A stretch of 36,778 nt of DNA, taken from positions 1 to 36,778 of the forward strand of contig JAUNAK010000024.1 of assembly GCA_030527665.1 (NCBI GenBank), read 5' to 3'. Within the stretch, counting starts at the first letter, position 1. Every line of letters begins with the position of its first letter. The notes under the pieces are model-generated. The model worked only from the letters and a program-made list of their open reading frames with translations. It did no database searches and had not been told where the DNA came from. The stretch comes from Eubacteriales bacterium. Its GTDB lineage: Bacteria > Bacillota > Clostridia > Lachnospirales > Lachnospiraceae. A program made the translations under genes and the position numbers. Positions 1,855 through 12,708 of this stretch are shown here, in pieces.

Positions 1855-1899
1855 CAAAAAAGGGGCACAGTATTCCCTTTAAAAAGAATACTGTGCCCT
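1855..1899 (-). terminator. intrinsic terminator of the SLH-protein gene / corrinoid operon
   Basis: A perfect 13-bp stem (arms 1863-1875 and 1886-1898) is followed on the minus strand by CCTTTTTT. It lies about 75 bases beyond the stop of the SLH protein gene and would end the long leftward operon. Confidence 0.9.
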
Positions 1900-1972: not shown

Positions 1973-4321
1973 TCATGCCAGTTCATAGGCAAATTTATTG
2001 TTGTAACGATACAGAATTACAGACATCTGGAAGCGCAGGCAATTACCTGTCGGCTCAAATTTACCAGTATTGTAACCGTTAACAAGCTTATTGGCAGAAG
2101 CCCACTTGATGGCATTTACCATATTTTCGGTAACACCCGTCTTCTTGTCCACTTTGACATCCGGGAAGTTCTTGGCTGTGCCGATCAATTCCGGCTTTCC
2201 GGCAAACTTCCAAAGCATGATAGCCACCTGTCCTCTTGTAACAGAATCCGTCGGTTTAAAGGTTCCGTCACTATAGCCGTTGATAATACCTTCGGAAGTT
2301 CCCCATGCAATTGCCTGATAGGTTGCGGTTGTCTTTGCATATTTGCCTTCGATATCCTTAAATGTCTTGCTTTTAGAAAGATCCGCTTCCGGTCTGCCTG
2401 CATATCTCCACAGGAAGATGATGAAATCAGCTCGGGATGTTGTTTTAAAGGAGCCAAAGTTTACCCTGTCATATCCGCTTGTAATTTCTTCGTCAGCCAT
2501 CCATTTGATAGCATCTGCAATGTTCGGTGTAATCGCATTGTTTCCATCTTTCACACCAACAACTGCATCGTAGAAATTATTCTCCACTATGCATTCTGCA
2601 GAAAATGCACCATCTTCTGTTGTTGCAGTAATCACTGCAGTACCGTAGCGAAGGGCATTTACAAGACCATTTTCATCAACAGCTGCAATCCTTTCATCAC
2701 TAGACTTCCAAATTACCTTTTTATTCGTTGCATCTTCCGGCAAAACTTTTGCAGTAAGCTTTCTTGTGGATACATCAGTATTATCCGCAGACGTATTCAT
2801 AGTTACAAGCTCCGCAAAATCAGCATCCAGCTCGATACCGGTAACTGCGATAACTGCCGGATCGATTACTACGCTCTTCTCTGTCTTGCTTACGGTGATC
2901 TGTCTCTCATACCATCCCTTTTCGGAGTGGAAGGATACAACAACAGCTTTGTCCATGTTATCCAGTGCGGTCGATCCGCCCATGGCGTTTGCTTTTACCG
3001 GAATTGCAAAGGTACGGTTCTCATCTACAGCAATAGTCTCTGCTGCCGTTTCTGCATTCTCTTTGCTTCCTACAAATACTTTATCGAAGGTATCGTTTGC
3101 CATTGTCAGCTTCAGTATCTCTTTGTAGTTGTTGGAGTTCGGTCCTCCGATGGTCTCCAGCTGTGCGGATGCCGGCTTAAACATCTTCACATTGTTGGTC
3201 AGAGTCAGATCTACGGAAGCATCGTAATCGCCAAGAATGATGGTTCCTGCAGTCAGGTCGATCTCTGCCTGACGCGGATAGAAGCTTCTCTCCAGCGTAT
3301 TGCTTCCTTTTTTGTATCTGTCATAGTAGGATTTGGAGATTGAGGTAATTGCATAGTAGCTCTGTCCCTCTGTCAGCGGAATGCTGAAGGTGAACTTGCC
3401 TTCTTCCACCTTCCCCTCTACTCCTGCGATCCAGTTTTCCGGAACATCTCCGTTTGCGACAGCCTCTTCATAGGTTCCGAGAAAGAGATTCTGATAACCT
3501 CTTCCGCTTAAGGTAAGCTCCAGGACCTTGCTTCCGTCAGCACTTGCTATAACGGTTGCTGCAATACCATTAAACATACCGGTTTTGTTGGTAATGGCAA
3601 GTTCCGTACGTACATCCTCTTCAACAGTACCTTCCACCGGCATTGTCAATGCATCATCAAGAACAACTGCAGCCGTTCCAGCCGGAGCTTCCGCAAGTGT
3701 CTCCATCTTTACGTACATCCGCATCTTATTGCCGATCTTGGTTCCATCATCTTTCATATAGAAAGCGAATACCGGATCTGTCAGATTTGTCAGCGGAATC
3801 GTATATTCACTGAGTTCCCCGCGGGCTGTAACCGAAGACTTGTACCAGGTTACCTGATGTGCCTTAGCGGCATCCTGATCTTCTCCCAGTGCGATGATTC
3901 TTTTACTGGAATTACCGGAAACAAAATGCATCAGAAAGGTACCGTCTGCCTGCATGGTGATCGTAACATTGCTTGCACTGTACATACCTGTTGCTACATC
4001 CGGTGTATCTGCATTGGCTGCAAATACCTCTGCAGTATATGTCTTTCCGATTTCCGGTGTTACCTGTGTTCCCTGCTCGGTTCCCTCTGCAGTTTCCGCA
4101 TCTGCATCGTTGGTTTCCTCTTCTGATCCGCCCAGAACACTTTCTTCTGTTTCATCCAAAATCATTTCCTCTTCTGCCGGAAGTGCTTCTTCCTCTTCTG
4201 CAACTTCCAGCTCGATCATTTCACCGTCATCTGCATACACAGGTGCCGCTGACGCGATCGGTGCTGCTGCCATTGATGCGGAAAGCATCAGCGCAAGCAG
4301 CTTATTCATGCGTCCTTTCAT
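1973..4321 (-). CDS. SLH-anchored surface protein with three NEAT-like beta domains and a Big2 domain
   Basis: This 782-residue exported protein has a signal peptide (1-30, ending ...APVYA) and an acidic Glu/Thr-rich stretch (31-88). Three beta-rich modules follow (about 90-208, 236-356 and 365-482), then a Big2-type Ig-like domain (about 492-578) and three S-layer homology repeats (about 583-775, with motifs such as ADFIIFLWRYAGRPE and TRGQVAIMLWKFAGKPE) that would bind it to cell-wall polymer. The second module clearly resembles the middle module of the 1218-residue protein two genes upstream: both contain LSGxGY, then a G-x-x-E-x-A stretch, W, and a G-K-x-T/Y-x-x-I-x-x-P strand. This suggests a shared ligand. 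It is last in the operon, 254 bases beyond the lipoprotein gene, with a strong site TAAGGAGG before the ATG. Capture of a corrinoid at the cell surface is inferred from the operon riboswitch; heme or another ligand is not excluded. Confidence 0.8.
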   Translation of the reverse strand: MKGRMNKLLALMLSASMAAAPIASAAPVYADDGEMIELEVAEEEEALPAEEEMILDETEESVLGGSEEETNDADAETAEGTEQGTQVTPEIGKTYTAEVFAANADTPDVATGMYSASNVTITMQADGTFLMHFVSGNSSKRIIALGEDQDAAKAHQVTWYKSSVTARGELSEYTIPLTNLTDPVFAFYMKDDGTKIGNKMRMYVKMETLAEAPAGTAAVVLDDALTMPVEGTVEEDVRTELAITNKTGMFNGIAATVIASADGSKVLELTLSGRGYQNLFLGTYEEAVANGDVPENWIAGVEGKVEEGKFTFSIPLTEGQSYYAITSISKSYYDRYKKGSNTLERSFYPRQAEIDLTAGTIILGDYDASVDLTLTNNVKMFKPASAQLETIGGPNSNNYKEILKLTMANDTFDKVFVGSKENAETAAETIAVDENRTFAIPVKANAMGGSTALDNMDKAVVVSFHSEKGWYERQITVSKTEKSVVIDPAVIAVTGIELDADFAELVTMNTSADNTDVSTRKLTAKVLPEDATNKKVIWKSSDERIAAVDENGLVNALRYGTAVITATTEDGAFSAECIVENNFYDAVVGVKDGNNAITPNIADAIKWMADEEITSGYDRVNFGSFKTTSRADFIIFLWRYAGRPEADLSKSKTFKDIEGKYAKTTATYQAIAWGTSEGIINGYSDGTFKPTDSVTRGQVAIMLWKFAGKPELIGTAKNFPDVKVDKKTGVTENMVNAIKWASANKLVNGYNTGKFEPTGNCLRFQMSVILYRYNNKFAYELA

Positions 4322-4425
4322 AAAAGACCTCCTTAAATAATATTGTACATTCTATGCCTGTACTGATATAAAAGCCTTTCAAAATATCCGCATATTCCAA
4401 ATGACTTTTATCCTGGCAATTTGTG

Positions 4426-4542
4426 TACCTGTAAGGCAGATACGACCTTATGAAGAACTCTCCGCAAAAGTTCATGCATACAAATTTACCTGTACCCGAT
4501 TCACAGGTACCTGAGATTCAGACTGCACAGATTTACCTGTAC
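4426..4542. repeat. cluster of TACCTGTA motifs in the 254-bp intergenic region before the SLH gene
   Basis: The motif TACCTGTA occurs at 4426-4433, 4487-4494 and 4534-4541. A palindromic version, CAGGTACCTG, lies at 4504-4513. The last two full copies extend to a shared ATTTACCTGTAC, 47 bases apart. The region (4322-4575) has no ORF and no B12-box. It may hold operator sites or RNA pairing elements that set expression of the SLH gene separately; this is inference. Confidence 0.5.
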
Positions 4543-4575
4543 AATCGTAATCGCTGCAATCTCAATCATTTTTCA

Positions 4576-5934
4576 TTACTTTGCCGGTACCTTGGAAAGG
4601 AATGTCATCTTCCCGTCATCACCGCTGTCCATCATCTCATGGAAATCAAGGATCAGGTTGGCCACCTTATCCGTTGACTGATACCAGGTTCCGTCTACCT
4701 GATAGACGTTTCCTTCTTTTACAGCTTTAAACTCCTCGAACAAGACGTCCTTGCCGATCAGGTCCTCGATGGTATTCAACGGTGCTTCGATCGTTCCGTT
4801 ATAGATCAGATAATCCGCATCCTTGGCAACGCTGTAGAACTCCTCCATGGAAACATTGACGGATGCACTCTTGCTTTCTGTATTCTCCAGGTTTTCGAAA
4901 ATATATTCCCCTCCGGCAAGGGCGATCATATTCGGAATGAAATCGGCAGTCTTACGAACGACGATGGATTTGTTGGAATTCACAGAGAAGAACGCAACCG
5001 TTTTACCGGTAGCCTGATAATCCTGAATCTGACTGATCAGCTTTTCCTGTTCAGTAAAAAATGCTTCCGCCTCTTTTTCTTTATCAAAGATCGCCCCGTA
5101 GACCTTGACCCATTCACAGCGTCCCAGAGCTTCCTGCTCATAGCTGCATCGATCGATCAATACCGGCATGCCCAGATCCTCCAGCATCTCCTGTACCTCC
5201 GGAGAATGCAGGATCATCGTTGACTCAATGGCAAGATCACAGTTTTTTCCAACCATCTGCTCGTAGTCCGGTGCACTGTATTTGCCGGCGTAAGCCATCT
5301 TTCCATCCTCCAGTGCAGCCTTCGGTGCTTCAATATACCAGCCGGATGTATCCACACTGGTCATGGTTACTTTATCCAATGCACCGATCGCATTGATCAG
5401 AGACATGGATGCGGTGGCTGCATTGTATACTTGTGTCAGCGGCTGCTGAATAACGGTAATATTCTTGTCCAAACCTTCCGGCTTTTCTTTTCCTTCCGGA
5501 ACGAGCAGATATTTTCCGCTTTCCACGATATCGAGCAATTTATAGCCGTCGGTGTAATAGAATACATTAAACTGATTTGCATAATGCAGATCCATAACCG
5601 ATTCACAGGTGAGACCCTTGATCTCCGGTGCAGCCTCTATAGATGCAGATGTATGCGGACCGTCAGAGCTGTTTCCGGAATCGTTTGAGGACAGAACCTC
5701 TCCGGTAGAACCGGAAATAACTACTTCTTCAAATTCCTGACTGGATGCCGCTGCCGCCTTCTCTCCCGCTGTGTTTACCGACTCACTGCCGGCAGCTGTT
5801 TCGGCAGAAGAAGCAGCCGATCGACTGTTCTGTGCAGCAGTGTCTGTATTTCCGGATGCGCCGCAGCCTGTCAGCAGAACAGCAGCCAGCGCCGTACACA
5901 GAATATTCTTCACAAACCTGTTTTTCATTTTCAA
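4576..5934 (-). CDS. ABC transporter substrate-binding lipoprotein (BtuF/FhuD class)
   Basis: A 452-residue lipoprotein with a type II signal peptide and lipobox LTGC (Cys24), a Ser/Ala/Glu-rich tether (25-90) and a class III periplasmic-binding-protein fold of the PF01497 type, used for siderophores, heme and cobalamin. Visible features are the N-lobe start (YYTDGYKLLDI, LLVPEGKE), the MPVLIDR turn before the long linker helix, and a complete C lobe with TADFIPNMIALAGGEYIFEN and the late GNVYQVDGTWYQS strand. It should deliver substrate to the permease encoded upstream. It begins 8 bases after the preceding gene, with AAGAGGA as ribosome binding site. Residues about 100-300 match the C-terminus of that preceding protein, so the two are partial paralogues. 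A corrinoid ligand is inferred from the riboswitch. Confidence 0.9.
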   Translation of the reverse strand: MKMKNRFVKNILCTALAAVLLTGCGASGNTDTAAQNSRSAASSAETAAGSESVNTAGEKAAAASSQEFEEVVISGSTGEVLSSNDSGNSSDGPHTSASIEAAPEIKGLTCESVMDLHYANQFNVFYYTDGYKLLDIVESGKYLLVPEGKEKPEGLDKNITVIQQPLTQVYNAATASMSLINAIGALDKVTMTSVDTSGWYIEAPKAALEDGKMAYAGKYSAPDYEQMVGKNCDLAIESTMILHSPEVQEMLEDLGMPVLIDRCSYEQEALGRCEWVKVYGAIFDKEKEAEAFFTEQEKLISQIQDYQATGKTVAFFSVNSNKSIVVRKTADFIPNMIALAGGEYIFENLENTESKSASVNVSMEEFYSVAKDADYLIYNGTIEAPLNTIEDLIGKDVLFEEFKAVKEGNVYQVDGTWYQSTDKVANLILDFHEMMDSGDDGKMTFLSKVPAK

Positions 5935-5942
5935 TCCTCTTC

Positions 5943-8900
5943 TTATTTTTCTTCTTCATTACCGGCTTTATCACTGTCACCGGCTTTGTTCTCTTCTTTT
6001 CCTGCAGCCTTCAACGCAGCTGCTTTATCTGAATCCGAAGCTTTGGATACGATTTCACTGTATTTCTGTCCGGCTTTATCCATCGTTCCGTAGATGGTGC
6101 CGTAGACCTTATACCATTCTGCTTTTGCCAGATCATTTTCCTCATCGGCACTTCGATCGACCAGAAGCGGCATTTCCATCTGCACACATCTGGAGCCAAG
6201 AGAATACAGAACCTTTGCAGCCTCTGTGGCTGCCTCTTTGATCTCTTTCTCCTCCGGAAGAAGATCGGAATTCTGAATCATCAGGTTGTTCTTGCCGAGG
6301 ATCAGCGCCTTATAATTCAGCTGATCATAGCTTCCTGCATCCTTCAGATCATCCTTATCGGCCAGTTCTTTCGGAAGCTTGTCCTTTTCTACCGCTGCCG
6401 CTGTAATCATCTTCAGCAGATCCAGATCCTCCATATAGGAAAGCGCCTCTTCCGAAGCCACGCAGGCTTTATCAGCCGGTGTCTGGATCAGGATGACCTG
6501 ACGATCCATGCCCGCCGGAATCTCCTTGCCTTCCGGAATCACCAGATACTTCAGTATCGGATTTTTATAGAGAGCATCCTTCTGAGCCGTGATCGTTGCG
6601 GATGACTCCTTCTCCTCTTCTTCACCGGTATCTTCGGATTTTTTCTCCAGTGTTTTTTTATCGATCGTTTTCAGGGCTGTTCCCTTTTCCATATCGATCT
6701 CGATCAGAGAATATCCATCCTTATAATTGAAGATTTTGAAAAGACTGGAATAGGTTACTTCCGTTTCCTTCTCTGCCTCCAGTCCCGGAATATCGGGAGC
6801 AACAGCATCAAAGGTGTCATACTGCTTGTCTACGGAGACCGGTTTTTCACTGGTCTTTGCTGCCGAACCGCCCTTGCTGCTTCCGCCACCTCCATTGCTT
6901 CCGCCTGCTTTTTCGGCAGCCTTCAGCCCGAAATAGAGAGTATATGTGATCTCATGCGGCTGTGACATTGCAGTAGTCATACCGATGATAGTGTTATTCT
7001 GATTCAGCTGAACCGGAATACGGAAGGTTGTTGATCCGCCTCCCTGTACCTTGTCGTTGATCGTCATTCCGCCTGCTTTGACATACTGGAAATGTGTACT
7101 CGAGAAGGTGATATCCGCATAGGTCTTTCCGCCCTGCACGATAATACGATTGCAGCTGATGCTGACTCTTCCTGTTCCGCCGGACCAGTTAAAGGAATCC
7201 GGTGTGTATTCTCCGTCTTCCAGTTTTGTGCTGCTGTTGACAGCACCGGTGCTTCCGTTTGTGTTTGCCGAATAACCGCCGGAACCGCTGCCGCCGGATC
7301 CGGTTCTTCCAGAGCTTTTTCCTGAACTATCTCCTGTATCGCTTCCCTGACTGTTTCCGTTATCACCGTTTGCATCCCCGGTATGTACACCGTCCTGTTT
7401 GGAAGGATTGGGATCCTGGGTGTAGCTGCTGCTGTTTTTATCCTCTGCCTTATGTGTAGGCAGTGCACTGCCATTTACATCCTTGGAATAGATGATGATG
7501 GAATGATCACCGTCTCTCCAGGGTTCATTGCCGCTTCCGTCTGTTGCATATTTATGACTTCTGGAAGCAAGCGTAAACGGCTTGTCCAGATACGGAACAC
7601 GAATGGTATAGGTGTATTTGCCGTCTGCATTTGTCCATGCAGGAGACCATGCACCTTCACCGGCCGCCTTGGCCTGCTCGGCACTTCCCGGATATACATA
7701 ATCGTATCCGGTGCCGCTGAGCGTAATATCTGCCGTATATACACCGTCCTTTACATGAAGCACAACACCGGCCATATTGAACATTTTGTTCTCGGCATCC
7801 TTATAGCTCATGGTATAATCGCCGTCATTTACGACATCTACTTTTGCATCTGCCGGTGCCGCTGTCGGTGCTTTGGTCGGTGCCGCCGTCGGTGTCTTGG
7901 TCGGTGCCGCTGTCGGCTCCGTACTCTTCTGCTTCGTCATCTTGACAGTAAGATTCAAGCCTTTTCCGCCGGCATCCTCGATCGGATACTGGATATTACT
8001 CGAAGAATAACCTTTTGCAGTAATGGAAAACATACACAGCTGTCCGGTCGGAATTTCATACAGACCATCTGTACCAGCTTTCAGCACCTTTCCTTTTGCA
8101 TCCGTCACCTTGATCGTGGGCTTTTCCGAACCGCAGTCTACCGTAATTCGTACTTTTCTCACGGCATGTTTCAGCTTGATCACCGGACTCTCATCCGCTG
8201 TCAGCTGTACTGACGAAGTTTTTGTTTCATAATTGTCCGCAGAAACCGTCAGATCATAGACCCTCCTGGAAGACAAGCTGTATTTTCCGTTTTCTGCATT
8301 GAGTGTTACATTGCTGCTGTCGGTAATACGTACAACAGCATTCTCGATCAACTTTCCGGTCGCTTCGTCTTTGATTACCGGCGCATAGGTAAAAAACTTC
8401 TCCGGTTCTGCATTTTTAACCAGTGCAACAGAAACCGTATCATTGGAATTTGCGGTAAACGTCTGCGAATTGCTGTTGTATCCGTCTGCCGCAGCCTGAA
8501 CCGTATATGTTTTCCCGGAAAGCAGATGATATTTTCCGTCTCCTCTGACTGCAACAGCGTTCCCGCTTTCATCGGTTACGGTGCATAAAGCATTGCCGAT
8601 AGCACTGTTGTTCTCACTGTCTACCGCCTGTACTGCCTTTACATTGTAGTCGACAGAAAGCTTGACCTGAAACTCGTAGAGGATCCAGTGCGGATCATTC
8701 ATTCCGACTGTACGTCCGGCAACCGGAGTAACTCCATTCAGCTGAACGGGAATCTCCACTTTATTTCCTGCATATACATTTACTCCAGTACTTCCTGTAT
8801 TGGGATCATACAGACTCGGAATTTCACTCGGATTATAATCCGGTTCCCCTTTCTTTGGAATTCTGCCGGTATAGAAATGTGTATAGCTGCTGGTCGTATG

Positions 8901-9599
8901 GAATGTTGCAAAAGCTTTTCCGTCCGTAATACGAATCTGATCCAACTCATATTTTACTTTTCCGGTTCCGCCGGTGAACGTCAGTGCACCATTCGTATAC
9001 ACGCCATCCGGAAGATCTGTTGCATTATTTACTGTACCGGAAGCCGGATCCACATTACCGACCAGTGTATCCTTTTCTTTGTCGGATTCCTCTTCTTTTT
9101 TCTCAGTCAGGGAATCCTCCTTCTTTTCTTCCTCTTTTTTATCCTCTGCTTTTTTGTCAGAATCATTCTTTGGGGAGTTATCTGCCTTTTTTTCGCTTCC
9201 GGCATCACCCTTCTGACTGTCTTTGCGGTTGTTTTTATCAGCAGCAGGCGCCTCTGTCACTTCAGGCTTTTCTGCTCCTGGTGTTTCTGTTGCTGCCGGT
9301 GTATCTGCACCTGACGGTGTTTCTGTCGTTCCCGGTACAGGTACTGCCGGATCATTTCCGTCCTTCTCGTCTGCCGGTGCTTCCGGATCCGCTGTCGGTG
9401 TCACCACTACATTTTCAAAATCATCAGAAGGTGCCGGATCCGGTGTCGGCGGTTCTTCCGTATCGGCATTTTCATTTTCCTGCTGTGTTTCCACGCTTGA
9501 TCCCGTAACTTCATCAGCTGCAGCTGCAGGAGCTGCCATCGTCAGCATCATGCTGCATGTAAGAATACCGATCAATGCTCGAACCTGAAGGTTTTTCAT
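5943..9599 (-). CDS. large exported multidomain protein: NEAT-like modules, PEGA-like repeats and a half substrate-binding protein
   Basis: 1218 residues. Layout: signal peptide (1-28, AAPAAAA), a long disordered Pro/Thr/Glu/Lys stretch (29-190), beta module 1 (196-317), three PEGA/carboxypeptidase-regulatory-like beta repeats (about 318-394, 395-478, 479-556), a TAAPTK linker (557-585), module 2 (587-708), a Gly/Ser/Asp linker, module 3 (791-893), and a C-terminal region (935-1188) resembling only the N-terminal lobe of a class III substrate-binding protein. Modules 1 and 3 share DGxYT, SGGTG, a GK-[AT]-[FY]-A strand, IPVQLN and a late PH motif; module 2 matches the SLH protein. They look NEAT-like, but that family call is not certain. 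No LPXTG, lipobox or membrane anchor is seen. The ATG follows AGGAGG. It lies between the ATPase and the full-length binding protein, so a corrinoid relay role is inferred. Confidence 0.8.
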   Translation of the reverse strand: MKNLQVRALIGILTCSMMLTMAAPAAAADEVTGSSVETQQENENADTEEPPTPDPAPSDDFENVVVTPTADPEAPADEKDGNDPAVPVPGTTETPSGADTPAATETPGAEKPEVTEAPAADKNNRKDSQKGDAGSEKKADNSPKNDSDKKAEDKKEEEKKEDSLTEKKEEESDKEKDTLVGNVDPASGTVNNATDLPDGVYTNGALTFTGGTGKVKYELDQIRITDGKAFATFHTTSSYTHFYTGRIPKKGEPDYNPSEIPSLYDPNTGSTGVNVYAGNKVEIPVQLNGVTPVAGRTVGMNDPHWILYEFQVKLSVDYNVKAVQAVDSENNSAIGNALCTVTDESGNAVAVRGDGKYHLLSGKTYTVQAAADGYNSNSQTFTANSNDTVSVALVKNAEPEKFFTYAPVIKDEATGKLIENAVVRITDSSNVTLNAENGKYSLSSRRVYDLTVSADNYETKTSSVQLTADESPVIKLKHAVRKVRITVDCGSEKPTIKVTDAKGKVLKAGTDGLYEIPTGQLCMFSITAKGYSSSNIQYPIEDAGGKGLNLTVKMTKQKSTEPTAAPTKTPTAAPTKAPTAAPADAKVDVVNDGDYTMSYKDAENKMFNMAGVVLHVKDGVYTADITLSGTGYDYVYPGSAEQAKAAGEGAWSPAWTNADGKYTYTIRVPYLDKPFTLASRSHKYATDGSGNEPWRDGDHSIIIYSKDVNGSALPTHKAEDKNSSSYTQDPNPSKQDGVHTGDANGDNGNSQGSDTGDSSGKSSGRTGSGGSGSGGYSANTNGSTGAVNSSTKLEDGEYTPDSFNWSGGTGRVSISCNRIIVQGGKTYADITFSSTHFQYVKAGGMTINDKVQGGGSTTFRIPVQLNQNNTIIGMTTAMSQPHEITYTLYFGLKAAEKAGGSNGGGGSSKGGSAAKTSEKPVSVDKQYDTFDAVAPDIPGLEAEKETEVTYSSLFKIFNYKDGYSLIEIDMEKGTALKTIDKKTLEKKSEDTGEEEEKESSATITAQKDALYKNPILKYLVIPEGKEIPAGMDRQVILIQTPADKACVASEEALSYMEDLDLLKMITAAAVEKDKLPKELADKDDLKDAGSYDQLNYKALILGKNNLMIQNSDLLPEEKEIKEAATEAAKVLYSLGSRCVQMEMPLLVDRSADEENDLAKAEWYKVYGTIYGTMDKAGQKYSEIVSKASDSDKAAALKAAGKEENKAGDSDKAGNEEEK

Positions 9600-9639
9600 A
9601 TTGTATTTTCCTCCTGTTATCTTATCGATCCGCTTAAAC

Positions 9640-10785
9640 TTATTTCACTGAAACGAACTCGGACATTTTTGTGTCAAAAAACTCTTTTTCCGTCATTAAT
9701 TTTCCTGCTGCTGCCGCCTCTTCCAGAAGTTTCCTCATACAGGCATTTCCCTGACCGGTAACCAGACCGGCATCGATCACCATACTGCAGAAATTCATTT
9801 TTTCTCTTGCTGCCTTCATTGCCTCTTCACTGACCGGCTCGAAGGGCTGCATTTCGATCATATCCGCAGCCAGCAGTCGTGCCAGCTTATGATCCACATC
9901 GTTGGTATAGAGAATGCCGGCCGAAAATGGAATGCCCAGCTTCTGCAGCTTTCGATAGGTGCCGATTCCGTTTCCGCAGGAAGAAAGAACCATGACTTTT
10001 GCTTCACCCACTGGTTTCGGAAGTTCGATACTTCCGAACAGTGGATCGAAATAACCCTTGTCGATCTCATAGAGATCACGAATCATCCCTTCTTCAAAGA
10101 TCTCCTCCGGTTTTCCGTGCCTGAAAATATGATCTCCCTTTACACAGATAATACGATCGGAGATTTTCATTGCCAAATCAATCTCATGAAGAGACATGAT
10201 AACCGTGATATTTCTGCTCTTAGCCATATCACGAAGAATCGACAGCAGTTCCAGTTTATGCCGCACATCCAGGAAGGAGGTCGGCTCATCCAGAATGATC
10301 ATATCCGGTTCCTGACAGATCGCACGTGCAAGCAGAACCCTCTGTCTCTGTCCGTCACTGATAGCATTGAAATCCTTGTTTCCCAACTCATAGGCATGTA
10401 CGGAACGCATGGCCGCATCCACGATCTCCTCATCCTCCCGACTCAGAATTCCCAGACGTCCGGTGTAGGGATATCGTCCGGTAGCCACCACATCATGACA
10501 GGTCATAAGCTCCGGTTTCATTCGTTCTGTTAAAACAACAGCCATTCTGGCAGATAATTCCTTGAAAGAATACTTCTGAATATCCTTTTCCGCAAAGATC
10601 ACCCGTCCGCTGATCAGAGCAAGCTGCCGGGTAATACTCTTCAGAATCGTAGATTTACCGGCACCGTTCGGACCGATCAGTGTTACGATCTCACCTTTCT
10701 GCACATTGATATTGATATCTTTGATCAGCGCCTGTCCCTGATAACCGACAGAAAGCTGCTTGGTTTGTACATAATATTCAGCCAT
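9640..10785 (-). CDS. FecE/BtuD-type ABC transporter ATPase with C-terminal extension
   Basis: 381 residues. Residues 1-255 are a complete nucleotide-binding domain: Walker A GPNGAGKST (38-46), signature ISDGQRQR (142-149, the SDGQ variant common in FecE/BtuD proteins), Walker B MIILDEP (162-168) and the H-loop His200. Residues about 256-381 form an extra domain beginning EAKVMVLSSCGNGIGTYRKL and containing AGILYTNDVDHKLARLLAADMI. It resembles an alpha/beta fold with a Gly-rich loop. I do not recognise it, and it is too short to be the CbiZ amidohydrolase that is fused to some cobalamin ATPases. The start codon overlaps the permease stop by one base (TAATG), with AAAGGAAAT as ribosome binding site inside the permease gene. 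It powers import through the upstream-encoded permease. Confidence 0.93.
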   Translation of the reverse strand: MAEYYVQTKQLSVGYQGQALIKDININVQKGEIVTLIGPNGAGKSTILKSITRQLALISGRVIFAEKDIQKYSFKELSARMAVVLTERMKPELMTCHDVVATGRYPYTGRLGILSREDEEIVDAAMRSVHAYELGNKDFNAISDGQRQRVLLARAICQEPDMIILDEPTSFLDVRHKLELLSILRDMAKSRNITVIMSLHEIDLAMKISDRIICVKGDHIFRHGKPEEIFEEGMIRDLYEIDKGYFDPLFGSIELPKPVGEAKVMVLSSCGNGIGTYRKLQKLGIPFSAGILYTNDVDHKLARLLAADMIEMQPFEPVSEEAMKAAREKMNFCSMVIDAGLVTGQGNACMRKLLEEAAAAGKLMTEKEFFDTKMSEFVSVK

Positions 10786-11849
10786 TACATATTTCCTTTC
10801 TGTCTGCGGATCAGCATATAAATAACGATCGGTGCACCGAAGATCGAGGTGACCGTACTGATATTCAATTCCCGCGGAGCAAAAGCCATTCTCGCTACCA
10901 GATCGCAGAACATAACAAATACCGAACCGCCGAAAAAGGTCGCCGGAATAACGACCAGCGGCTTGGATGTATGCAGTGCATGCTTGATCAGGAACGGAAC
11001 TGCAATTCCTACAAAGGAGATCGGTCCTGCAAAGGCAGTAACACAGGCGGATAAAATACTGGAAAACAGGATCAGAAGCACACGGAAGCGTTTTACATTC
11101 ACACCCATACTCTGTGCATAAGCCTCGCCCAGCTGATATGCACCGATCGGTTTAGAAAGCCCAAATACACAGATCACACCGATTCCTACAATGACAGCAC
11201 CTACTGCCACATTGCTCCAGTTCATACCGGAAAAGCTTCCCTGTGACCATCCATGCAGATTGACAATATCCGAATCATCGGCAAACGTAATGATCAGCTC
11301 GGTGACTGCCGAACAGATATATCCGATCATAATTCCGGCTACCAGCAGTGCCGCCATATGCTTTACACTTCTGGAAACAGCAAGAATAAATCCGGTGGCA
11401 AGCAGGGAACCAACGAATGCAGCTGCAACCAGTACATAGGAAGAAACCCGTCCGAAATTACCGATAAAAAAGATCATAACAATGGCAACCACCATCTTGG
11501 CACCGGATGAGATGCCAAGTACAAACGGACCTGCAATCGGGTTGCTGAAGAAAGTCTGCAGCAGGAAACCGGAAAGCGATAAGGCTCCTCCCAGTAAAGC
11601 CGCCATCAGAATACGGGGCAGACGAATTTTCCAGATGATATTGACCTCATCAACATCTCCTGCTTTTGTAAAGATGATTCGAAAAATCCGGGACACCGGA
11701 ATATTTACATTTCCTGTATTCACGTTCAGAACCGTAATCATCACAAATGCTGCAAGAAGAACCAGAAACACAATGGAATATCTGCTCCTTCTTCGAAAGT
11801 TTTCCATATGGAAGCTTTCCGGTGTTCCCGGATTGACTTTTTCGTTCAT
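10785..11849 (-). CDS. FecCD/BtuC-type ABC transporter permease
   Basis: 354 residues with about 10 hydrophobic helices, typical of the FecCD family that imports siderophores, heme and cobalamin. Family landmarks are LPRILMAALLGGALSLSGFLLQTFFSNPIAGPFVLGISSGA near residues 80-125 (read as separate conserved motifs LPR, GxxLxxxGxxxQ, NPLA/NPIA and LGxxxGA), the cytoplasmic coupling stretch around GEAYAQSMGVNVKR, and the late FVGIAVPFLIKH. It is the first gene after the cobalamin riboswitch and terminator. The site before this ATG is only a purine run (AGAAAG), so Met15 (MENFRRR) is a possible alternative start. It would form the transport pore with the ATPase that overlaps it. Cobalamin or another corrinoid is the likely substrate because of the riboswitch. 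Confidence 0.93.
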   Translation of the reverse strand: MNEKVNPGTPESFHMENFRRRSRYSIVFLVLLAAFVMITVLNVNTGNVNIPVSRIFRIIFTKAGDVDEVNIIWKIRLPRILMAALLGGALSLSGFLLQTFFSNPIAGPFVLGISSGAKMVVAIVMIFFIGNFGRVSSYVLVAAAFVGSLLATGFILAVSRSVKHMAALLVAGIMIGYICSAVTELIITFADDSDIVNLHGWSQGSFSGMNWSNVAVGAVIVGIGVICVFGLSKPIGAYQLGEAYAQSMGVNVKRFRVLLILFSSILSACVTAFAGPISFVGIAVPFLIKHALHTSKPLVVIPATFFGGSVFVMFCDLVARMAFAPRELNISTVTSIFGAPIVIYMLIRRQKGNM

Positions 11850-11922
11850 TTTCTTTCTCTCTTTCTAATTGTTCTTATATGCGCCTGCAATATGCAAAGC
11901 CTCTTACGGGATCTGCATTTTA

Positions 11923-11955
11923 ATCCTGCTCTGCCATGCCGGCATGGTGCAGGAT
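11923..11955 (-). promoter_or_regulatory. second strong hairpin in the corrinoid operon leader
   Basis: Between the riboswitch terminator and the permease start lies a nested dyad: a 14-bp palindrome CCATGCCGGCATGG (11934-11947) inside flanking arms ATCCTGC and GCAGGAT (11923-11929 and 11949-11955). There is no T tract, so it is not a terminator. It may be a processing site, an mRNA-stability element or a transcript-folding element. Confidence 0.45.
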
Positions 11956-12018
11956 CCGACATCTCAAATACCGGATTCATCCACAGATCCTATATGCTGC
12001 ACACTCCTGCGCTGCCGC

Positions 12019-12051
12019 AAAAAAAACAGCTGTCCGCTTCTACGGACAGCT
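12019..12051 (-). terminator. riboswitch expression-platform terminator
   Basis: A 9-bp perfect stem AGCTGTCCG/CGGACAGCT (12028-12036 with 12043-12051) with a 6-base loop is followed on the minus strand by GTTTTTTTT. It lies about 55 bases after the cobalamin aptamer and 170 bases before the permease start, so ligand binding would be expected to favour it and shut off the operon. Confidence 0.9.
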
Positions 12052-12106
12052 TTCTGTGCACACAAAAAAAGGATCACAGATGCAGCTTTCGACGGAAGCG
12101 CATTTC

Positions 12107-12284
12107 TGATCATTCAGCAGGTTTCCTGACTCATAGAGATTCCTGTTATTCCTTCTCACTTTCGCAATGGATAGCAACAGTATCTTCCATAAGAGAAGTT
12201 CTCTATTTACAGTGACCGGATCGTTCAGGTCTTCCACCTGATTCCCTTTTACCTTTGTTCCTGAGAACACTCCCCATAACAAAG
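12107..12284 (-). ncRNA. cobalamin riboswitch aptamer
   Basis: Read on the minus strand, this leader has the class hallmarks in order: an AAAAGGGAATCAGGTGGAA segment (around 12248-12230), GACCTGAACGATCCGGTCACTGTAAA (around 12230-12205, split by the conserved CACTGTAA), a variable P6-P11 region, and a B12 box GAGTCAGGAAACCTGC (12117-12132). These match the AdoCbl-type cobalamin riboswitch consensus. It sits between a promoter and an intrinsic terminator upstream of the FecCD-type permease, so the operon is likely repressed when intracellular cobalamin is plentiful. The 5' boundary is estimated. Confidence 0.92.
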
Positions 12285-12311
12285 CACTGAATGACTGATA
12301 TTCAACAATTT

Positions 12312-12340
12312 ATTTTAACACTCTTATATATGCCTTTCAA
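12312..12340 (-). promoter_or_regulatory. promoter of the riboswitch-controlled corrinoid operon
   Basis: On the minus strand, TTGAAA (12335-12340), a 17-base spacer and TAAAAT (12312-12317) form a good sigma-A-type promoter about 30 bases before the aptamer. Confidence 0.8.
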
Positions 12341-12415: not shown

Positions 12416-12421
12416 ATAAAG

Positions 12422-12493
12422 CAGTTGATATGGGAATCGAACCCATGTTTTCGCCGTGAGAGGGCGACGTCTTGACCCCTTGACCAATCAACC
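12422..12493 (-). tRNA. tRNA-Glu (anticodon CUC), copy 1
   Basis: The minus strand folds as a 72-base tRNA: acceptor GGTTGAT/ATCAACT (G1-U72 wobble), discriminator G, anticodon stem TCGCC/GGCGA with loop CTCTCAC (anticodon CTC, reads GAG), and T arm ATGGG TTCGATT CCCAT. CCA is not encoded. It differs from copy 2 by one base in the D arm (C instead of T). It has its own promoter and terminator. Confidence 0.95.
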
Positions 12494-12630: not shown

Positions 12631-12636
12631 AGCAAG

Positions 12637-12708
12637 CAGTTGATATGGGAATCGAACCCATGTTTTCGCCGTGAGAGGGCGACGTCTTAACCCCTTGACC
12701 AATCAACC
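12637..12708 (-). tRNA. tRNA-Glu (anticodon CUC), copy 2
   Basis: A 72-base tRNA on the minus strand with the same acceptor, anticodon (CTC) and T arm as copy 1, 215 bases away. The only difference is a T in place of C in the D arm. CCA is not encoded. Confidence 0.95.

Follow-up and report, generated by a model that had tools for sequence, protein, structure and literature searches.

What does a locus carry that joins NEAT-like surface proteins and a BtuFCD-like importer behind a cobalamin riboswitch? The question was raised by contig JAUNAK010000024.1 of a Lachnospiraceae genome (Eubacteriales bacterium, GCA_030527665.1), whose 36,778 nucleotides (nt) were analysed as a whole and are here called the window. 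Its minus strand holds such a locus, which also encodes a half-BtuF, a domain with only the N lobe and linker helix of the binding protein BtuF. The locus belongs to a NEAT/half-BtuF/BtuFCD system that is conserved among B12 producers and mostly under riboswitch control; in many of these producers it is linked to a CbiK chelatase with a secretion signal. The system is real and larger than first described. With a probability of about 0.48, just short of even, we read it as a cobalamin-repressed wall-to-membrane import line whose main cargo would be cobalt-sirohydrochlorin or a near precursor from an extracytoplasmic lipid-anchored CbiK, finished corrinoids being a possible secondary cargo.

Organization of the locus

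The predicted elements are listed below (aa, amino acids).

12312..12340, minus strand: promoter-like site TTGAAA-17-TAAAAT (consensus match only)
12099..12305, minus strand: cobalamin riboswitch aptamer (RF00174, 73.8 bits, E 1.5e-16)
12028..12051, minus strand: intrinsic-terminator-like hairpin between the aptamer and the first gene (10 pairs, 6 GC, T-rich tail)
10785..11849, minus strand: BtuC-like FecCD permease, 354 aa (PF01032, E 1.4e-77)
9640..10785, minus strand: BtuD-like ABC ATPase, 381 aa, with a C-terminal extension (about residues 256-381) (PF00005)
5943..9599, minus strand: 1218-aa secreted surface protein with signal peptide, NEAT-like domains, CarboxypepD_reg domains and half-BtuF
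8640..9050, minus strand: NEAT-like domain A of the 1218-aa protein, approximate bounds (similar domains in relatives; no Pfam match)
7455..7850, minus strand: NEAT-like domain B of the 1218-aa protein, approximate bounds (matches relatives and the SLH protein, BLASTP 2e-5)
6900..7262, minus strand: NEAT-fold domain C of the 1218-aa protein, with HxxxY (predicted fold)
6033..6800, minus strand: half-BtuF of the 1218-aa protein (limited to N lobe and linker helix)
4576..5934, minus strand: BtuF-like binding lipoprotein with both lobes and lipobox LLTGC (PF01497, Peripla_BP_2, E 1.4e-36)
1973..4321, minus strand: 782-aa exported protein with NEAT-like region, Big_2 and SLH repeats (PF00395 in three stretches, PF02368)
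1863..1898, minus strand: terminator-like hairpin with a 16-base-pair (bp) stem at the end of the unit, behind the last gene

A sequence-only reading of the window had named the promoter-like site, aptamer, terminator, permease, ATPase, 1218-aa protein, lipoprotein and 782-aa SLH protein, and all were found on the minus strand where it had placed them. It had missed the predicted NEAT fold of domain C with its HxxxY, the C-terminal half-BtuF of the 1218-aa protein and the extension of the ATPase, which aligned with the corrinoid ATPase model PRK09536. The aptamer covered model positions 1-189 of RF00174, for which the gathering threshold is 31.5 bits, and was detected again at 76.5 bits in a scan of the whole genome, where four cobalamin riboswitches exceeded the cut-off. 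Any single terminator-like hairpin is weak evidence, since 21 were found where 9.4 were expected from shuffled sequences. Intergenic gaps in the unit did not exceed 40 bp except for the 254 bp ahead of the SLH gene, and co-transcription of that gene is therefore only putative.

Cobalamin riboswitches precede most related loci

The sequence-only reading had asked how often homologues of the 1218-aa and 782-aa proteins stand behind B12 riboswitches. The best 80 of 240 relatives were taken as named loci, and their candidate proteins were collected with two patterns, the H and Y of the HxxxY motif being part of one. Proteins ending in half-BtuF occurred in 79 of these loci (L186 gave no half-BtuF frame). 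A covariance model, R1, was built from 22 riboswitches and run on all 80. Of the 79 half-BtuF loci, 15 start too close to a contig end for the test; among the 64 testable ones, 58 carried a same-strand riboswitch 180-5313 nt ahead of the gene, a count in which some contigs match by construction because they also served for training (e.g. L036/L185 and L038/L113) and in which L158 and L159, mirror copies on one contig, are counted twice. L188 (30.2 bits) and L137, where the contig end truncates the match (27.3 bits), gave the weakest matches counted.

The Rfam cobalamin model found at least one riboswitch in 35 of 36 relatives' genomes. Among the 19 half-BtuF loci L036-L054 it placed one upstream on the same strand in 13 and none there in L037, L044 and L048; L045, L046 and L049 start at contig ends. 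The 58 of 64 speak against the outcome that the sequence-only reading had named as contrary to it, homologues standing without a B12 riboswitch, and support its picture of a B12-riboswitch-controlled wall-to-membrane relay of NEAT-fold domains and BtuCD-like parts.

The system is concentrated in B12 producers

A family survey covered 299 genomes, mostly one per genus, and a genome was scored as a hit if it matched the 1218-aa protein at E<=1e-8 (n = 104, some perhaps through BtuF alone). After two weak CbiC matches (G016, G166) and 15 weak CbiM matches had been dropped, precorrin-8X methylmutase, CbiC, was present in 101 of the 104 hit genomes and in 68 of the 195 others (Fisher p 3e-29). The cobalt importer component CbiM showed the opposite distribution among the 169 producers, with 27 of 101 hit and 46 of 68 other genomes (p 1.5e-7); both tests take genomes as independent and are uncorrected for phylogeny. 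Only 3 of the 130 genomes without CbiC were hits. Six of the 68 non-hit producers (G100, G128, G156, G187, G190, G192) nevertheless carry CbiK-NEAT-BtuF genes, and moving them changed the CbiC table to 107/3/62/127. These distributions indicate a feature of B12 makers, found more frequently where the usual cobalt importer is lacking, and not mainly of scavengers that require B12.

CbiK with a secretion signal adjoins or is fused to the surface modules

Genes for CbiK, a NEAT protein, BtuF, BtuC and BtuD come after the riboswitch in many relatives. When locus L075 was scanned further, these genes were followed by a CbiA/CobQ-type protein, CbiC, CbiD, a tetrapyrrole methylase and CbiG. In the relatives read, CbiKs adjoining NEAT/BtuF genes had N-terminal extensions with a lipobox, secretion signals being assigned by a regular expression and reading by eye instead of a trained predictor. 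From the hit genomes, 20 CbiK loci were sampled (every fourth row among the first 77), and 19 could be parsed: 15 CbiKs had a lipobox, 1 a hydrophobic signal and 3 no signal. Fifteen of the 16 signal-bearing CbiKs adjoined NEAT/BtuF genes, so that 15 of the 19 loci combined both. A corresponding sample from non-hit producers (20 loci, every third row among the first 58) gave 19 CbiKs without a signal, and an ABC ATPase domain was fused to 5 of these; the sole lipobox CbiK, in G100, adjoined NEAT, BtuF and BtuC. Seven further non-hit loci were chosen for long CbiK frames, and five of these had a lipobox CbiK with NEAT and BtuF (all but G244 and G008).

The same modules also occurred as single proteins. 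CbiK-NEAT-like fusions were found at E below 1e-4 in L070, L205, L212, L251, L266, L124 and L175 and more weakly in L064 (3e-3) and L065 (4e-4). NEAT-like-BtuF fusions were present in L058, L064, L065, L067, L068, L072, L073, L074, L202, L204, L205, L209, L266, L271 and L272.

The sequence-only reading had assigned the system simply to corrinoid capture. As stated, that was not supported: with the system concentrated in B12-making genomes and coupled in many relatives to a CbiK with a secretion signal, a cobalt-tetrapyrrole precursor is indicated as cargo at least as strongly as finished corrinoids.

Two other arrangements of CbiK were seen. Fusions to an ABC ATPase, CbiO-like by eye, occurred in seven genomes, all with CbiM (L087, L085, L215, L217, L219, L220, L223), and form a cytoplasmic counterpart of the CbiK-NEAT fusions. 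In G229 (C6:18970-21249) one open frame of 946 aa holds two CbiK domains.

The signal-bearing CbiK is often the only chelatase found

In 56 hit genomes there was a single CbiK match, and it lay in an extended frame. A lipobox was seen in 52 of these and a hydrophobic start in G226, G002, G169 and G043; in the last two the CbiK sequence read ended before any lipobox position. CbiC was present in 54 of the 56 genomes, and 11 of the 54 also had CbiM. In these 54 producers, then, the sole CbiK match bears a signal and there is no CbiX match outside CbiK. A hidden cytoplasmic chelatase of the CbiX type was rejected, as all 56 PF01903 matches in 64 genomes lay inside CbiK genes. If the signal-bearing CbiKs are exported, cobalt insertion in these producers would take place outside the cytoplasm or be performed by an enzyme type beyond CbiK and CbiX, such as the CysG/Met8 type.

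The assignment to CbiK was examined at the family and residue levels. The protein of L002 passed the PF06180 cut-off (239.9 against 26.2 bits). The NCBIfam CbiK equivalog cut-off of 400 bits was missed both by the lipobox CbiK of L074 (183.3) and by a signal-less copy on contig C81 of the window's own genome (227.1). The lipobox CbiK of L066 matched the cobalt chelatase structure 1qgo, which we take to be Salmonella CbiK, at E 8e-35; its other two solved matches were 9b86, named FetB and assumed here to come from P. gingivalis, and 2xvx, a putative chelatase that is presumably Desulfovibrio CbiK-P. His145 and His207, important for insertion in Salmonella CbiK according to the available part of a review (PMC7689651), were retained in the L066 protein, the one lipobox CbiK aligned to 1qgo, with positions counted by hand.

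Six genomes with CbiC (G003, G094, G127, G293, G142, G040) gave neither a CbiK nor a CbiX match. They possibly use a cobalt precursor made by others, or have assembly gaps.

Surface domains and importer

Domain C of the 1218-aa protein was predicted to adopt a NEAT fold, and its closest structures were NEAT domains (Z up to 10.0). The label "NEAT-like" given by the sequence-only reading thus holds for domain C by predicted fold and fails by Pfam, where no window protein reached the PF05031 cut-off: whole proteins gave no NEAT match at E<=1, a 317-aa piece scored 13.9 bits (E 0.075) and relatives scored up to 28.2 bits against a cut-off of 32.8. A PDB profile search with the NEAT alignment gave no match, one with alignment A1 a single chance match (E 0.47), and phmmer with the 1218-aa protein only chance matches to antibody chains. 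In place of YxxxY, which we take to be the heme-ligating motif of heme NEAT domains, domain C carries HxxxY, the equivalence of position being drawn from sequence without superposition. The motif was invariant in 20 sequences collected without a motif filter and in 69 collected partly by a pattern that contains its H and Y.

Having only the N lobe and helix, the half-BtuF domain departs from class III binding proteins, in which a helix joins two lobes. Its alignment spanned approximately residues 22-180 of CeuE and 23-147 of 2r7a, and its likeness to BtuF was no greater than that to the heme binders 2r7a and IsdE. An origin by truncation or by faulty assembly of the window was rejected, as the same ending was present in 80 proteins of the 79 named loci. 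In all 80 the half-BtuF lay near the protein end, in 77 at most 56 residues from it; proteins matching a full BtuF at E<1e-60 had been filtered out. The next gene encoded a full BtuF in 66 of the 79 loci.

Pfam identified the parts of a BtuFCD set (FecCD permease, ABC ATPase and Peripla_BP_2 protein). The top NCBIfam model for the permease was BtuC (207.9 bits, under the cut-off of 334). For the ATPase it was FecE (211.6 bits, under its cut-off), followed by PRK09536 (residues 6-355, 198.7 bits against a cut-off of 537), with an alignment that ran past the ATP domain into the C-terminal extension. An extended ATPase was found near the half-BtuF gene in 54 of the 79 named loci. A phmmer search with the lipoprotein gave no matches. 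The 782-aa protein passed the SLH cut-off (75.8 bits); its NEAT-like region was recognized by BLASTP to the 1218-aa protein, and its NEAT-named NCBIfam match falls in the SLH part.

The window's own genome and a candidate exporter

The B12-making gut bacterium from which the window derives encodes a lipobox CbiK behind a riboswitch of its own and gave no CbiM match. Its contig C81 holds HemA, HemC, CobA-HemD, CbiL (TIGR01467, 203 against 163.25 bits), the signal-less CbiK and a DrrAB-like exporter, whose ATPase scored 251 bits, under the drrA cut-off of 312; the cluster adjoins a divergently read two-domain NEAT protein. In G081 a single riboswitch-led run comprises a lipobox CbiK, two NEAT proteins, CbiL, DrrA-like and DrrB-like proteins, CobA-HemD, a SirC-like protein (PF13241), BioY and NEAT-BtuF. 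A DrrB homologue (E<=1e-12) was detected in 8 of 40 sampled hit genomes, among them G063, which has no CbiC, and in 0 of 40 sampled non-hit genomes, a set that includes the NEAT-set carriers G128, G156, G187 and G190. The standing of the DrrAB-like exporter as a general part was lowered at 8 of 40, a search in which other exporters were not looked for. A loop of export, insertion and import is a possibility in some genomes.

Proposed mechanism and alternatives

The riboswitch type and terminator suggest that the operon would be read when adenosylcobalamin is low. SLH-anchored and secreted proteins would then capture the cargo through the pockets of their NEAT folds, where the HxxxY histidine perhaps serves as cobalt ligand, and the 1218-aa protein would pass it through its half-BtuF to the full BtuF lipoprotein and on to BtuCD. 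With its single lobe, the half-BtuF might hold the ring by one face, or might dock onto BtuC. A CbiK placed at the cell surface, as the lipoboxes suggest, and anchored there by lipid would make cobalt-sirohydrochlorin or a near precursor outside the membrane. The cargo and the direction of transfer are likewise proposed from the gene content. More tentatively, many B12-making Lachnospiraceae might export sirohydrochlorin, have cobalt inserted by the lipid-anchored CbiK, carry the product across the wall on NEAT folds and return it through a BtuFCD-type importer for CbiL, in place of cobalt-ion import by CbiMNQO; the window would then extend this scheme by SLH-bound carriers and a transfer module made of half-BtuF.

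Several observations weigh against import of a cobalt precursor. The window's locus itself contains no CbiK, and since its genome also encodes the signal-less copy on C81, insertion outside the cell is not forced there. The NEAT protein of the C81 cluster has Val in place of the HxxxY His, a motif that was itself placed without superposition on the NEAT heme site. In the R1 scan, six named loci with room for a riboswitch had none (L115, L123, L151, L162, L165, L173), and in G008 a signal-less CbiK adjoins BtuF and BtuC, with no NEAT gene present. With a DrrB-like exporter in so few hit genomes, export of sirohydrochlorin is not general. Among half-BtuF-operon genomes, G124, G203, G026 and G186 show only signal-less CbiK as judged by reading (19 such genomes), the first three have CbiM as well, and G040 and G142 gave no CbiK match. 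In these six, and in G003, G094, G127 and G293, the system may carry finished corrinoids, or else a precursor that others have made.

These misfitting genomes keep alive a close rival that we regard as possible though rather doubtful, a Gram-positive surface relay in which NEAT-fold and half-BtuF domains capture corrinoids of the gut in finished form (B12 and its analogues) for BtuFCD, and producers use it for salvage or re-uptake. The cobalamin riboswitch, a permease closest to BtuC and an ATPase that aligns to a corrinoid model all suit such a relay, as do G124, G203 and G026, where signal-less CbiK and CbiM make outside insertion unnecessary. It sits poorly with the near absence of hits from genomes without CbiC, where a scavenger should serve most, and with the secretion-signal CbiK that adjoins these NEAT and BtuF domains or is fused to them, and that has no evident role in corrinoid capture. 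One variety of the precursor reading, whose odds overlap with it, is cobalt scavenging with an exported metallophore: sirohydrochlorin would leave the cell, receive cobalt from surface CbiK and be retaken. The gene run of G081 and the scarcity of CbiM among hit producers point that way, the rarity of the DrrB-like gene speaks against it, and we consider it unlikely. Uptake of heme or iron-porphyrin, with the lipobox CbiK as a porphyrin chelatase or dechelatase like Porphyromonas FetB, could account for the NEAT fold of domain C, whose nearest structures are heme NEAT domains, for the likeness of half-BtuF to 2r7a and IsdE, and for the FetB-named chain among the near solved relatives of the lipobox CbiK; P. 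gingivalis FetB is a metal-exchanging porphyrin chelatase in the portion of a review available (PMC13402209). The heme or siderophore reading was lowered because of the frequent cobalamin riboswitch and the CbiC linkage, and with L075 lying inside a cbi operon and HxxxY standing in place of YxxxY, we consider it improbable.

Comparison with known systems

The Isd system is anchored by sortase and controlled by iron through Fur. It is a heme relay of Gram-positive bacteria built from NEAT proteins, IsdE and a FecCD-type transporter, as the accessible part of a review describes it (PMC13402209). Shared with the window system are NEAT-fold surface domains, a class III binding lipoprotein, a FecCD permease and the wall-to-membrane logic; the window system differs in its cobalamin riboswitch, SLH or no evident anchor, HxxxY, half-BtuF and link to B12 synthesis and CbiK. 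With the BtuFCD vitamin B12 transporter it shares permease, ATPase, binding lipoprotein and cobalamin riboswitch, but its proteins fall below the NCBIfam equivalog cut-offs and it adds NEAT and half-BtuF surface proteins. Bacteroides BtuG and BtuH, in the available text of two reports (PMC6143338, PMC8941943), likewise provide surface capture ahead of Btu transport; they belong to another phylum and envelope.

The nearest precedent is Desulfovibrio, where CbiK lies outside the cytoplasm, as proposed here, and a B12 transporter is co-regulated. One B12 element there controls cbiK-cbiL and btuCDF, no known cobalt transporter was found and its authors proposed cbtX (PMC545781, available in part), and CbiK-P is the periplasmic cobaltochelatase of D. 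vulgaris (PMC4063343, likewise in part). Desulfovibrio is Gram-negative, and the accessible portions of these two papers mention neither NEAT nor half-BtuF. FetB of P. gingivalis, which we take to lie at the cell surface, resembles the present CbiKs as a CbiK-family chelatase acting on porphyrins. It differs in inserting manganese into protoporphyrin, and the available part of the review mentions no B12 control (PMC13402209). A literature search over titles and abstract openings, with subscription journals mostly outside its coverage, retrieved no description of a NEAT/half-BtuF/BtuFCD system.

Among wall-to-membrane NEAT relays the system counts as a variant; it would be categorically new if cobalt is inserted extracellularly. 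If the precursor reading is true, NEAT folds serve cobalt tetrapyrroles besides heme, and a single lobe of a binding protein can suffice for a transfer module. B12 producers common in the gut may then acquire cobalt as a ring complex made extracellularly, which would offer an explanation for the cobalt supply of producers without CbiM. Genome-based predictions of B12 sharing and competition in the gut would change, as BtuFCD-like genes alone would not imply B12 scavenging.

Neighbouring elements

Directly upstream of the riboswitch unit lie two tRNA-Glu(CTC) genes (window 12421-12493 and 12636-12708), and a terminator-like hairpin stands behind each. Within the gap between the lipoprotein and SLH genes, window 4400-4570 contains several inverted ACCTGTA-type repeats, seen by eye, which are perhaps a terminator or regulator site. 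Elsewhere in the same genome, a cobalamin riboswitch on contig C68 (L003; C68:7981-8156, 78.6 bits) precedes a xanthine/uracil-type permease (102-1412, PF00860) by about 90 nt, possibly for uptake of a lower-ligand base. A riboswitch on C129 (C129:32175-32356, 99 bits; L077 2302-6697) is followed by genes for a serine acetyltransferase-like protein, an HbpS-like protein and the large and medium subunits of diol dehydratase.

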